Assembly (NCBI GenBank): GCA_947086895.1
Contig: CAMUAR010000005.1
Coordinates: 1-64,000, forward strand
DNA length: 64,000 nucleotides
From: an uncultured Lachnospiraceae bacterium
Lineage (GTDB): Bacteria; Bacillota; Clostridia; Lachnospirales; Lachnospiraceae
Direction: 5' to 3'
The position numbers and the translations under genes were made by a program. Below the pieces are notes generated by a model that was not told the DNA's origin, did not search any database, and saw only the letters and a program-made list of their open reading frames with translations. This document shows, piece after piece, positions 3,057 to 48,380 of the stretch. Position 1 is the first letter of the stretch, and each line of letters begins with the position of its first letter.

Positions 3057-4139
3057 CTATATTCTCTCCGCAATTTGATCCCCCATTTCTTTTGTACCGA
3101 TAAGCTTGCAGCCCTCAGACATAATATCCGCTGTGCGCCATCCCTCGTCAAGCACACTGTTTACCGCTGCCTCAATGCAGTCTGCCTCCTCTTCAAGATC
3201 AAAGGAATACCGCAGCATCATAGCGGCGGAAAGAATTGTGGCAATTGGGTTTGCTATATTTTTTCCGGCAATATCCGGCGCCGACCCATGGCTTGGCTCA
3301 TACAGTCCAAGTTTTGTCTCTCCAAGACTTGCTGAGGCAAGCATTCCAATCGAGCCGGTTATCATGCTCGCTTCATCCGACAAAATATCTCCAAACATAT
3401 TTTCTGTCAGAATAACATCAAACTGTTTTGGATCTTTTACTAACTGCATTGCGCAATTATCCACCAACATATCCTGCAATGGAATACCATTGTACTCTTG
3501 GGCTGTCTCTTTTACAACCTGTCTCCAAAGCCTGGAGGTATCCAGCACATTTGCCTTGTCAACGCTTGTGACATGTCCTTTTCTTTTCTTTGCAACCTCA
3601 AACGCCCACTTTGCAATACGCCGAATTTCATTTTCATCATAAGGCATTGTATCTGTCGCCTTGCGCACGCCGTTTTCTGTCACAGTTTCCCTTTTTCCAA
3701 AATAGACACCCCCGGTCAGCTCGCGCACAACAACAAAATCAAAACCGTCTCCAACCAGCTCGTCCTTTAAAGGACATGCTTTCTTCAACTGCGGAAACAA
3801 CACTGCTGGACGAAGATTGCAGAATAGCCCAAGTCCTTTCCGAATCGCCAAAAGCCCTGCCTCCGGTCTTAAATTTGGCGGAAGTTTATACCAATTTGAC
3901 TTTCCCACGTCCCCGCCGACCGCGCCAAGCAGCACAGAATCACTCGCCTTTGCTGTTTCCAACGCCTCGTCCGTCAAAGGTACTCCTGTTTTGTCAATAG
4001 AAACTCCCCCCATCAGCACCTCAGTATAACAAAATTTATGCCCGAATTTTTTTCCAACCACATCGAGAACTTTGCACGCCTCGCGCACAATCTCAGGACC
4101 AATTCCATCTCCGGGAATCACTGCAATTTTGTAATCCAT
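3057..4139 (-). CDS. leuB: 3-isopropylmalate dehydrogenase
   Basis: The enzyme oxidises and decarboxylates 3-isopropylmalate to 2-oxoisocaproate with NAD+. The 360-aa product has the full beta-decarboxylating dehydrogenase pattern: [11 protein letters not shown] at the N-terminus, substrate-binding [24 protein letters not shown], the metal-binding Asp region [12 protein letters not shown], and the coenzyme loop [18 protein letters not shown]. The ATG is set by the AGAATGTGAGGA signal directly upstream. It is the first gene of the leu operon; no leuA is present in the window. Confidence 0.97.
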
Positions 4140-4142
4140 ACT

Positions 4143-4159
4143 TCCTCACATTCTGCCGC
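4143..4159 (-). promoter_or_regulatory. Recurring start-site element before leuB
   Basis: The minus strand reads GCGGCAGAATGTGAGGA, then AGT and the leuB ATG. The GAGG core works as the Shine-Dalgarno sequence. The same 17 nt recur before six other genes in the window (4407, 12985, 31381, 42536, 44811, 48217). Confidence 0.7.
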
Positions 4160-4224
4160 CAAAAGCGACCATATTTTTGATTTCTGCAATGCGGCATCCT
4201 CTTTGCATTGGCTTTATTTGAAAT

Positions 4225-4304: not shown

Positions 4305-4406
4305 TACATATCATGAATACTTTATATAACCTAAAATTATGGAATTACTTTATAATTTAATTTTGTTTTGGCAGACCGTTTTATACTTGTATAAACTTGC
4401 CCCATA

Positions 4407-4423
4407 CCGGCAGAATGTGAGGA
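4407..4423 (+). promoter_or_regulatory. Recurring start-site element before the LysR gene
   Basis: CCGGCAGAATGTGAGGA is followed by ACT and the ATG at 4427. Together with the copy before leuB it gives both genes of this divergent pair the same translation-start signal. Confidence 0.65.
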
Positions 4424-7491: not shown

Positions 7492-8415
7492 ATGAATGCA
7501 AACGAATTTATTTTAATACATGAAGACGGTTATCATACAACGGTCTACCCATCCCTCTCAGACCAGGAAACCATCAAAGGCACAGTTGTTGTGCTTCACG
7601 GACTTGCAGAGCACCATAACCGCTACCGTGAATTCTCATTATTTTTAAACAATAATGGTTATGATGTGTACTTGTACGATCACAGAGGACATGGCACGGA
7701 CAAAAAGCTTACTGATCTGGGTTATATTGCGGATTCCCGCGGCTGGGAAAAATTGATTCTCGACGCGGTTGATGTTCTCAGTTATGTGTCGGATCACAAG
7801 CGCGGCAAAAAACTGATTTTGTTTGGACATAGTATGGGTTCCCTGATTGCACGCGGCGCTACAGAGTACAGTGATCTTGTCAATGCAGCTGTTTTCTGCG
7901 GTACCACCGCACCGCCGATCCTCGACTCCCTCTCCGGGCTTTTTGTGACAAATCTAGTAAAATTATTAAAAGGAAAACGCCATATTTCTCCATTTTTAAA
8001 CAATGTTTTATTTGGTCGTAAACCGTACCGCGCTCTTTCTGAGCGCACGCAAAATGACTGGCTGACAAGAAGCAATGCCGCTGTTGGTCTTTATATGAAC
8101 GATCCTTACTGTGGTTTTATCTGCACCGCCGGGCTTTATCACGACCTTGTCAAGCTTGCAACCGTAGTGACAAAACCGGCAAATATCAAAAACACGCGGA
8201 AAAATCTTCCGATTTTCTTTTTGAGCGGCGACTGCGACCCGGTCGGCGGCTACGGCAACGAGGTTATGAAGCTGTTTGAAACATACAAGTCTCTCGGTTT
8301 TACAAATGTCGATTGCACTTTATACGAAAACTGCCGACACGAACTGTTAAATGAACTGAATCGACATGAAATTATGGCTGATATCCTCACTTTTATCGAT
8401 AAAGTGTCCTCTTGA
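7492..8415 (+). CDS. Alpha/beta hydrolase, monoacylglycerol lipase-like
   Basis: A 307-aa cytoplasmic serine hydrolase of the Hydrolase_4 (lysophospholipase/monoglyceride lipase) group. The nucleophile elbow GHSMGS puts the active Ser at residue 114; VLHGLAEHHNRY gives the oxyanion-hole segment, GDCDPVGG the acid and NCRHELLNE the His. Family members cleave monoacylglycerols or related esters; the natural substrate is unknown. I start at the ATG at 7492 because GGAG lies 9 nt upstream. It is a single gene between divergent and convergent neighbours. Confidence 0.82.
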   Translation: MNANEFILIHEDGYHTTVYPSLSDQETIKGTVVVLHGLAEHHNRYREFSLFLNNNGYDVYLYDHRGHGTDKKLTDLGYIADSRGWEKLILDAVDVLSYVSDHKRGKKLILFGHSMGSLIARGATEYSDLVNAAVFCGTTAPPILDSLSGLFVTNLVKLLKGKRHISPFLNNVLFGRKPYRALSERTQNDWLTRSNAAVGLYMNDPYCGFICTAGLYHDLVKLATVVTKPANIKNTRKNLPIFFLSGDCDPVGGYGNEVMKLFETYKSLGFTNVDCTLYENCRHELLNELNRHEIMADILTFIDKVSS

Positions 8416-12768: not shown

Positions 12769-12984
12769 AATACAAGCTTATAAATTTTTGATTCTAATTT
12801 TTTACAAAAATATACAACAGAAAAATATATTAAATTAAAAATATTTGTTTTGTCTATAATTTCTTAATATAAAATTTGTAAACTGTTGTAGAAGAATTTT
12901 GCAAAGAAATTCTTAATATTAAATATGGAAAAACTTTGCCGCGTGATCTTAAATTTTATATGATAAAATCGTCTATACTGTCCT

Positions 12985-13001
12985 GCGGCAGAATGTGAGG
13001 A
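12985..13001 (+). promoter_or_regulatory. Recurring start-site element before the response regulator
   Basis: GCGGCAGAATGTGAGGA is followed by AAATT and a TTG start. Taking this as the ribosome site shifts the start from an in-frame GTG inside the element to TTG at 13007. Confidence 0.65.
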
Positions 13002-14715: not shown

Positions 14716-14947
14716 GAAATCTTTCGCAGAGAAAGGTATTTTTCGAAAATATAAATTATGGATTAATATTTCTGTCTTTTTTGCTTTTATTATAACTATT
14801 ATTCTCTATAAAAAACAAAAAAAGCCAAAACATTTCTTTGAAATATATAACAATTGTACAATAGCAAAATCTTTGTACCATCTGGCATCACAAAGTTCCC
14901 TTGATCAAAACGCCGCATGCAAGGCAGACTGGAGGAAAAATGAATAA
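14708..14947 (+). CDS. Small single-span membrane protein between transporter ATPase and permease
   Basis: A 79-aa frame with a basic N-terminus, one hydrophobic segment at about 17-36 (WINISVFFAFIITIILY) and a Lys-rich tail. A strong GGAGGGG lies 6 nt before its ATG. It overlaps the ATPase gene by 8 nt and the permease gene by 8 nt, and both junctions read ATGAATAA. It could be a transporter subunit, a decayed permease fragment, or a chance frame; I recognise no family. Overlaps at both ends and the good ribosome site favour a translated gene. Confidence 0.5.
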   Translation: MNKKSFAEKGIFRKYKLWINISVFFAFIITIILYKKQKKPKHFFEIYNNCTIAKSLYHLASQSSLDQNAACKADWRKNE

Positions 14948-19215: not shown

Positions 19216-20205
19216 TTATTTTCTTTTTCGGAACTTTTTCTTTAGTTTCTTAAATTTTGTACGTATCTTCCACAGTAATGTTCTTTCTCGATAATGACCA
19301 TACTTTTTCGCAATATAGTCAAACGGCTTATCTCCAAAATCCCTCCAGAACTCGTCGCGTCCCTCCGGCCGCTTAAACGGTTTTTTTAATGGAACCTGCA
19401 TACTGTCCTCAATACGGCACGAACGGATATCCAAATTTTCTTTTACCGCCTCAAAAGCTGCCAATCCCTGCTCAGTATTTAGCAGAACAAGCGAAACGCC
19501 TTTGTTATCGTCAAAATTTGGCGTCGCATTATCCACCCTCCAAAAATCTCCAATTGTGATATCGCTTGGGTGTGTAATATCTTTATAAGGGCATTTATAG
19601 CAACTTAACCGGATAATTTTATGAGAATAAAACAGATTTCGAAACACTTTGCTATTTACTGTTTCAATTGTGCCGTCCCCTTTTTCTATCTTAAGAGTCT
19701 CAACATGGTCGTCCCAGCCAAAATCTTTTTTATTTCGAAAATCAATCTCCACACACGTTCCATGGTTTTTCTCCTCCTGCCACTGCAGATACTCCTTCCA
19801 TACCAAAGGACTGGGAACACCGTGGCAAAGAATATCCATACAAAAAAGCTGTTCGCCGTAATCTTTTCTAAGAAATGCCAAAAGTCCTGCAACCTGGCAG
19901 GAAGTTCCCGAAAACAATACCTTCCTGCCAGCTTCTAAGTCTGCTTTCACATTCCGAAACGTATCTGCCATATTGCTTTGAATATATTTGGAACCGCGCA
20001 TGCGGTTCCTCTCCTCTTTTGTTGTTGCTCGGACATGAAACGCCTCAAATTTCTCATCCAGCACACAGCCATAAACAATGCCGCCTTTTTCTAATACCAC
20101 ATCGGACACTGCGGTAAAAATCCCGCCGGAACGGGAGGCCATACGCACATCAAGGTCTTTATGCTTTACTGCATATACTATTGGAAAATCCATATTAATT
20201 TCCAT
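19216..20205 (-). CDS. Coenzyme F420 hydrogenase/dehydrogenase beta-subunit-like protein, main part of a split gene
   Basis: This part (about 329 aa) holds the FrhB_FdhB N and C domains: VYAVKHKDLDVRMASRSGGIFTAVSD, VLFSGTSCQVAGLLAFL, ILCHGVPSPLVWKEYL, then SCYKCPYKDITHPSDITIGDFW with Fe-S-type Cys residues, and a basic tail. Relatives in gut Firmicutes usually begin with a two-cluster ferredoxin domain in the same chain; here that domain is a separate frame (20304-20540). The start is unclear: ATG at 20205 or 20193, both with weak ribosome sites. The frame stays open to 20382 but that stretch does not look like family sequence. Function in electron transfer is inferred. Confidence 0.7.
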   Translation of the reverse strand: MEINMDFPIVYAVKHKDLDVRMASRSGGIFTAVSDVVLEKGGIVYGCVLDEKFEAFHVRATTKEERNRMRGSKYIQSNMADTFRNVKADLEAGRKVLFSGTSCQVAGLLAFLRKDYGEQLFCMDILCHGVPSPLVWKEYLQWQEEKNHGTCVEIDFRNKKDFGWDDHVETLKIEKGDGTIETVNSKVFRNLFYSHKIIRLSCYKCPYKDITHPSDITIGDFWRVDNATPNFDDNKGVSLVLLNTEQGLAAFEAVKENLDIRSCRIEDSMQVPLKKPFKRPEGRDEFWRDFGDKPFDYIAKKYGHYRERTLLWKIRTKFKKLKKKFRKRK

Positions 20206-20303
20206 TTCTACGTTACTTTTTCTATAGAAACAACTTTGTGTCAAGCAACGCGCAGACACAAACCCGCGTGTAAAAAATAAACTTTTCACACGATTCTCCC
20301 ACC

Positions 20304-20540
20304 CTACGACCGAAGATATCCCTTTTTTCTCTGATCTGCCTTGAATGCACAGACACTTAAACATTGGTAACACCGAATACACTTCTGTTTGTTTACAACA
20401 GGATAAAAGAATCCCGCCTTATTCGGCTGCATTGTAATTGCTTCAACTGGACAGACCGCGTAACACGCGGAGCAGCCACAACAATTTTCTCGTTTCCCAT
20501 AAAGTACCGGCGGCTTTCTTTTTTCTGAATCTGATTCCAT
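20304..20540 (-). CDS. Two-[4Fe-4S] ferredoxin domain, detached N-terminal part of the F420-dehydrogenase-like gene
   Basis: A 78-aa product with two classic cluster motifs, CCGCSACYAVCP and CIRCYQCLSVCAF, each with four Cys. In the usual family member this domain is fused to the FrhB-like domain found next door at 19216. The frame stops (KKGYLRS) about 100 nt before the conserved part of that gene. GGGG six nt before the ATG at 20540 favours this start; 20552 is possible. It follows the sugar kinase gene by under 30 nt, so it is probably in that operon. It may still work as a free ferredoxin. Confidence 0.65.
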   Translation of the reverse strand: MESDSEKRKPPVLYGKRENCCGCSACYAVCPVEAITMQPNKAGFFYPVVNKQKCIRCYQCLSVCAFKADQRKKGYLRS

Positions 20541-31380: not shown

Positions 31381-31407
31381 TCCTCGCATTCTGCCGCGTA
31401 AGCGGCA
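31381..31407 (-). promoter_or_regulatory. Recurring start-site element with hairpin before prfA
   Basis: The minus strand has TGCCGC TTAC GCGGCA, a perfect 6-bp stem, running directly into GAATGCGAGGA, then AATT and the prfA ATG. This is the clearest hairpin form of the element. One T-to-C change (GCGAGGA instead of GTGAGGA) separates it from the other copies. Confidence 0.7.
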
Positions 31408-31506
31408 TTTTCAATCAAAGGAACTTTGGGCTGCGCAGCAGCACAAATTCCAAGGTTGAAAATTTTTAATTTTCAATCTTATCCCTCCCGTTACAGTTTC
31501 CTGCAA

Positions 31507-42535: not shown

Positions 42536-42561
42536 CCCTCACATTCTGCTGCCGACAGCAG
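42536..42561 (-). promoter_or_regulatory. Recurring start-site element with hairpin before tsf
   Basis: The minus strand has CTGCTG TCGG CAGCAG, a perfect 6-bp stem, continuing into AATGTGAGGG and the tsf start. The stem sequence differs from the prfA copy while pairing is kept, which suggests the structure matters. Confidence 0.65.
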
Positions 42562-42593
42562 CTTTACATCTCAAATTCTTCTCTTTATTTGAT

Positions 42594-44810: not shown

Positions 44811-44841
44811 TCCTCACATTCTTCCGCATAAGCGGTATTTC
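44811..44841 (-). promoter_or_regulatory. Recurring start-site element with hairpin before the coiled-coil gene
   Basis: The minus strand reads AAATA CCGC TTAT GCGG AAGAATGTGAGGA, then CAC and ATG. The AAGGAAATA in front matches the upstream part of the leuC copy, which defines the longer form of the element. Confidence 0.7.
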
Positions 44842-48216: not shown

Positions 48217-48233
48217 TCCTCACATTCTGCCAC
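48217..48233 (-). promoter_or_regulatory. Recurring start-site element before the 104-aa membrane protein gene
   Basis: The minus strand reads GTGGCAGAATGTGAGGA, then GAGT and ATG. This copy lacks the upstream hairpin. Confidence 0.65.
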
Positions 48234-48380
48234 TATAATACAACTCTTATCCATACTGCCAAAAATATCAGAACTCCTACAAAAAAAATTATAAAGTCCT
48301 CTGTTCTTAGCCAGCGTAATATTCTGTAAAAGCGGCACTTAACCACATCTATACTTTAGTATAATTATCTTTATTCTTAA

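Follow-up and report, generated by a model that had tools for sequence, protein, structure and literature searches.

The window, the 64,000-nt stretch of an uncultured Lachnospiraceae genome analyzed here, carries a 17-nt motif in front of seven unrelated genes, namely leuB, a LysR-family gene, a response-regulator gene, prfA, tsf, a DUF6115 gene and a membrane-protein ORF (Table 1). All seven copies, which a first-pass annotation had listed at 3-6 nt from the start codon, are present at that spacing. The motif is the 3′ end of a larger repeat unit, in which a GC hairpin (GCCGC-loop-GCGGC) is followed by R-GAATG-N-GAGGA. Stems had been described for the prfA, tsf and 44811 copies and as occurring "often"; these three are there, but "often" understates the pattern, as each of the seven copies has a stem, which ends at or next to the base preceding GAATG. 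The diverged form claimed before leuC could not be upheld, since that region consists of GGAAAGGAG and an unrelated CTGC/GCAG hairpin.

Table 1 Hairpin and Shine-Dalgarno (SD) units of the window, with the position of the 17-nt motif copy where one was listed
Feature	Position	Strand	Motif	Remarks
Hairpin + SD unit before leuB	4143..4169	-	4143	Iso_dh; ATG 4139; stem GTCGCT/GGCGGC 4155-4169
Hairpin + SD unit before LysR-family gene	4398..4423	+	4407	ATG 4427; stem TGCC/GGCA
Hairpin + SD unit before response-regulator gene	12979..13001	+	12985	TTG 13007; stem TGTC/GGCA
Putative decayed long copy before 14940 gene	about 14833..14942	+		286 aa; covariance model E 3e-4
Full-length unit before prfA	31381..31480	-	31381	covariance model 108 bits; BLAST repeat; prfA ATG 31376-31374
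prfA unit, P0 hairpin	31452-31480	-
prfA unit, P1 hairpin	31420-31451	-
prfA unit, linker	31407-31418	-
prfA unit, P2 hairpin	31393-31406	-		GCCGC-TTAC-GCGGC
prfA unit, ribosome-site end	31381-31392	-		AGAATGCGAGGA
SD-like sequence directly 5′ of prfA unit	31481..31490	-		CGGGAGGGAT
Hairpin + SD unit before tsf	42536..42562	-	42536	stem GCTGCT/GGCAGC; G136 ortholog has unit too
Hairpin + SD unit before DUF6115 gene	44811..44835	-	44811	ATG 44807; stem CCGC/GCGG
Hairpin + SD unit before 104-aa membrane-protein ORF	48217..48244	-	48217	no Pfam match; stem GTTGT/GTGGC

Copy number, start-codon placement and the SD-proximal hairpin

Searching the window for GCGGCAGAATGTGAGGA with up to 3 mismatches returns 7 copies against 0.16 expected, a count reached by none of 100 shuffles. 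Across the whole genome (3.75 Mb in 138 contigs; G000 below, where G numbers denote genomes and L numbers loci), a pattern search with up to 2 mismatches gives 114 matches, compared with 0 for the reversed pattern. A position-weight profile finds 36 start-site copies in 461 kb, which extrapolates to ~290 genome-wide, or roughly one gene in ten; copy counts for this genome rest on searches and examined stretches, the total being the extrapolation. The core of the motif is R-GAATG-N-GAGG-A, in which N is completely free in G000. A start codon lies directly 3′ in 93 of the 98 distinct places examined (95%), with spacers of 3 nt (56 places), 4 nt (23) or 5 nt (9). GAGG sits 4-6 nt ahead of start codons, at the distance of an SD sequence, and the role of the unit as a ribosome site is well supported by this position. 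The first-pass annotation had named chance-level genome counts, or a lack of conservation 5′ of GAGGA, as grounds for abandoning its proposal; counts instead lie far above expectation and the upstream bases are strongly conserved. A −10-like TATAAT 5′ of the hairpin was considered as a promoter and rejected, with 26 occurrences against 24 in shuffles and no enrichment.

The hairpin adjoining the SD (P2) is itself under constraint. When copies were picked regardless of stem, they had stems much more often than did shuffled left arms or other SD starts. Among 190 copies with the right arm GCGGC, the left arm is exactly GCCGC in 102, compared with 1.4 after shuffling, while the loop is free (96 distinct sequences). 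Of 58 changes at the C positions of the left arm, 52 replace C by T and so preserve a G-U pair; pair-breaking G-to-A changes number 4. Other right arms show matching changes, as in GCTGC/GCAGC (tsf) and GCCGT/ACGGC (L143, L173, L207 and L222). This asymmetry, with C-to-T changes tolerated and G-to-A changes rare, shows that the hairpin belongs to the coding strand, whether as RNA or as single-stranded DNA. Folding predicted SD accessibility to be unchanged by P2, and the idea that P2 frees the SD from structure was rejected.

The long form, its decay and sister classes

The prfA copy belongs to a ~100-nt repeat that BLAST recovers as six full and about 26 partial copies, with long repeats 93-100% identical over 84 nt. 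Full copies (about 95-115 nt) consist of three consecutive hairpins, the AT-rich P0, then P1 and the GC-rich P2, followed by the SD. In their alignment 85.5% of cells pair, compared with 37-52% when the partners are slid, and 9 pairs are altered on both sides, compared with 5 after shuffling. A covariance model finds at least 131 matches in G000, at least 132 in G136, and at least 64, 50, 41 and 20 in G329, G281, G004 and G190. No terminal inverted repeats are found between the unit ends, AAGATTG... and ...GAGAGG. At two loci, L010 (G000:C56) and L069 (G000:C10), long-repeat copies have no evident gene 3′ and may be recent or orphan insertions.

Short copies retain parts of the long form. In G000, the GATTAAAAT linker survives in 31 of 57 short copies that have a stem (9.2 after shuffling), and AAAGTTCC of P1 in 12 (0.7 after shuffling). 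As these flanks are kept, the copies form a family related by descent that has probably decayed from the 5′ end, from the long form to a hairpin plus site. The unit is thus a repeat element, a short non-coding sequence in many dispersed copies of common descent. In the copy near 14833, CACAAAGTTCC and the linker are followed by GCC-GCATGCAA-GGC and then AGACTGGAGGAAAAATG, so that remnants of P1 and P2 precede an ordinary SD; we read this copy as the likely end stage of decay, in which the SD has turned ordinary. During decay, P2 and the SD would be retained by selection while P0, P1 and the loop are lost.

It is very improbable that these sites arose instead by convergence on a favored extended SD context, with no common descent. 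An AGAA-type extension 5′ of GGAGG is indeed also enriched at other start sites, yet linker and P1 sequence is shared far beyond the SD and has no role in SD pairing, the long repeats reach the identity given above, and the element is confined to a few Lachnospiraceae genera, other genomes being at control level.

A second class of hairpin-SD unit is found in G136, where varied but matching 6-bp hairpins (GCGCGC/GCGCGC, GCCCGC/GCGGGC, GCGTGC/GCACGC, GCCTGC/GCAGGC) are followed by R-GAYGGGAG-CA before ATG. In 287 kb of that genome GCRGAYGGGAG occurs 25 times, 20 of them at start codons, against 2 for the control, and of 31 copies at start sites, 19 form stems of at least 5 bp compared with 3.1 expected. 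Ahead of genes such as dxr the units form tandem arrays, with 65-67 nt per unit, and several copies away from start codons are followed by the P0 of a next unit. P0 is common to both classes (second-class loci L223-L237, L290, L396 and L403). A possible third class, alike in this genome and an Acetatifactor MAG, is seen at window positions 20191-20304 (- strand), in L031 (- strand, near 3137) and in L173 (+ strand, 7633-7740); here a P0-like hairpin and GTTTGTGTCTGCGCGTTGCTTGACACAAA... are followed by GAAATGGA or GAAATGAGG before the start codon.

Pairing with 16S rRNA and regulatory alternatives

No 16S gene was found in the G000 assembly, the carrier assemblies are MAGs without 16S genes, and a match in G281 was set aside because it does not look like 16S. 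Pairing was therefore computed with the 16S tail generally known for Firmicutes. With that tail the duplex reaches -8.7 kcal/mol in all, compared with -5.6 for GAGG alone. GAGG would pair in cis with the CCUC of the anti-SD, and RGAA could extend the duplex onto the UUCU end of 16S, with a U-U mismatch and the bulged N in between. Should R pair with the terminal base of 16S, the P2 stem would abut the 16S end and could stack on the duplex. The view that only GAGG can pair with 16S was thus too strong, as AGAA is also able to pair, with the UUCU tail. Even so, pairing by itself leaves the T of GAATG, the final A and the stem sequence unaccounted for. Pairing strength would favor neither that T nor the final A, nor a free N.

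Other start sites of these genomes are enriched in A and G where the 16S tail would pair. Ordinary SDs (in the window and in L031-L050) often extend toward AGAAAGGAGG or have T just before GGAGG, and these extensions suggest a wide use of the 16S UUUCU tail. The element resembles an extended SD in that GAGG can pair, as can RGAA with the 16S UUCU tail; it differs in its constant one-base bulge, the unexplained T, the abutting conserved hairpin and its spread as a repeat.

Conserved bases beyond SD pairing (the T of GAATG, the final A and CGGC), together with a hairpin under constraint, could also mark a cis-regulatory RNA, in which P2 and GAATGNGAGGA would be bound by a protein or small RNA that controls the translation of a large regulon. 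CsrA, the protein guessed at in the first-pass annotation, is present in several of the genomes, and its sites, like those of RsmA, resemble the element in having an AGGA core close to a stem where the ribosome binds. The element's GGA, however, lies 3′ of the stem and outside any loop, and no CsrA gene is found in G190, G281 and G312, which have 31, 32 and 12 copies; CsrA was accordingly rejected as a general cause. The target genes are unrelated and are not common to orthologs, no antisense sRNA partner was found among the 98 places, and no Rfam family matches the element, whose gene class is not constant. We regard a cis-regulatory RNA as decidedly unlikely.

Gene turnover, junctions and spread

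Of the 397 family genomes searched, the majority have 0-2 matches, the same as the control. The carriers are G136 (160 matches), G000 (114), G004 (37), G281 (32), G190 (31), G329 (24), G008 (19) and G312 (12), along with a few other genomes at 10-15; those named are mostly Acetatifactor and uncultured Lachnospiraceae MAGs. Plasmid or phage carriage was rejected: searches of plasmids and phages found no match of the element, and two exact viral matches have no such hairpin and look like chance. Occupancy turns over among orthologs. For 12 element-bearing genes, the start regions of orthologs were compared in six relatives, at about 46-96% amino-acid identity across the N-terminal query; dxr in G004 and tsf in G136 were the only ones with a clear unit, the others having ordinary SDs. 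Among 212 copies, only 11 ortholog-like pairs were found, about as many as a random choice of genes would give. This variable occupancy among relatives speaks against a regulon, and a conserved set of carrier genes was rejected on the same grounds.

Nested and tandem junctions of the units lie at GAGG/GGAG. Of 66 copies, 28 have an SD-like sequence no more than 14 nt 5′ of P0, compared with 13% of control windows (p about 1e-7). The matches are, however, short and G/A-rich; with a smaller, earlier set, shuffling of the bases still yielded 30% against 44%; and in G136 part of them belongs to the sister class. GAGG or GGAG is often found on both sides of a unit, though the unit carries its own copy, and no clear target duplication is seen. 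At L372 (G136) a short unit is followed by a long unit joined directly after its GAGAGG, and in G281 at least three arrays consist of 93-100 nt units that each start after the GAGG of the one before. In the same genome, L295, L369, L382 and L410 hold tandem 87-100 nt hairpin-SD units before genes, with P0 and P1 sequences unlike those of G000. The intergenic region of prfA is 130 nt in G000 and 49, 33, 160 and 118 nt in its relatives G003, G136, G001 and G008; without the unit it would be about 36 nt, as in element-free relatives, and the relatives have an SD at normal distance from the prfA ATG. The CGGGAGGGAT directly 5′ of the prfA unit may accordingly be the displaced original ribosome site.

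These junctions fit insertion between SD and start codon by a unit that brings its own SD. A dispersed repeat that enters this gap and then decays to a hairpin plus site is our preferred reading, to which we give a probability of roughly two in three. A new unit would land 3′ of a gene's original SD and 5′ of its start codon, pushing that SD about 95-115 nt upstream and taking over with its own, which might later revert to an ordinary one. Against insertion counts that no leftover SD is seen 5′ of the short copies. The dispersed mobile ribosome-site repeat suggested by the first-pass annotation gains support from the shared long-repeat flanks, the unconserved gene occupancy and the nested and tandem joins at GAGG, which together suggest active movement of the unit.

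The arrays could also be built by recombination, including unequal recombination. With no dedicated mobile element, hairpin units that contain an SD might recombine homologously or undergo gene conversion and so yield both arrays and spread, and array units do break at GAGG/GGAG, a short homology; spread to unrelated genes on 5-8 nt of homology would, however, be hard to explain, and we consider such an origin unlikely.

Equally doubtful is a non-autonomous, IS200/IS605-like (HUH) single-stranded DNA element of the PATE or REP kind that inserts 3′ of GAGG/GGAG, its ribosome role being a by-product. Hairpins toward both ends (P0 and P2), G-T tolerance of the single-strand type and a junction directly after a short motif without clear target duplication are all consistent with it. 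Such stem-loops (PATE, REP/RAYT) are likewise gene-free hairpins with a junction beside a short motif and, likely, one-strand recognition. A search for the Y1 HUH transposase family (PF01797), however, found none in G136, G190 and G004, one copy in G000 and several in G281, so that a resident IS200/RAYT transposase was rejected for three element-rich carriers; G136 nevertheless has many near-identical full copies. No autonomous element with the same ends was present in the loci examined, and 95% of places lie at start codons rather than at GAGG in general. Free-standing IS605 stem-loops of Borrelia have copies at the 3′ ends of genes (PMC2775950), unlike the present element, which is found at 5′ gene ends and serves as a ribosome site. 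An IS200/IS605-like activity would be less a full alternative than a possible mobilizer for insertion of the dispersed repeat, and at present no Y1 transposase needs to be invoked.

Exact-sequence and topic searches of open-access papers returned nothing on the element. Known small bacterial repeats are intergenic and affect expression by chance of position, and we are not aware of one that itself supplies, at its end, the ribosome-binding site for hundreds of genes. The BOX, RUP and SPRITE repeats of Streptococcus pneumoniae are short, non-coding, interspersed sequences predicted to fold when transcribed, with modular structure, tandem inner units (boxB) and nested insertions (PMC3049150). 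The element shares these traits; in contrast to them, its 3′ end is an SD site that lies 3-5 nt 5′ of the start codon in unrelated genes, it has neither terminal inverted repeats nor a clear target duplication, and it belongs to another bacterial family and has another sequence. A broader proposal, which we hold only tentatively, is that a mobile element specialized for ribosome-binding sites targets the gap between SD and start codon, puts its own hairpin-SD module in place of the SD and has reset the translation start signal for about a tenth of the genes of several Lachnospiraceae genera, and that its sister classes rely on different hairpins and forms of the SD.

In these genomes, a conserved motif upstream of genes is not to be taken as the mark of a regulon. 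If the insertion reading is true, translation initiation signals can spread like transposons, and unrelated genes can carry homologous ribosome sites of common descent; the strength of the effect of an SD-abutting hairpin on initiation, and the resetting of the SD strength of many genes at once, would then become testable.
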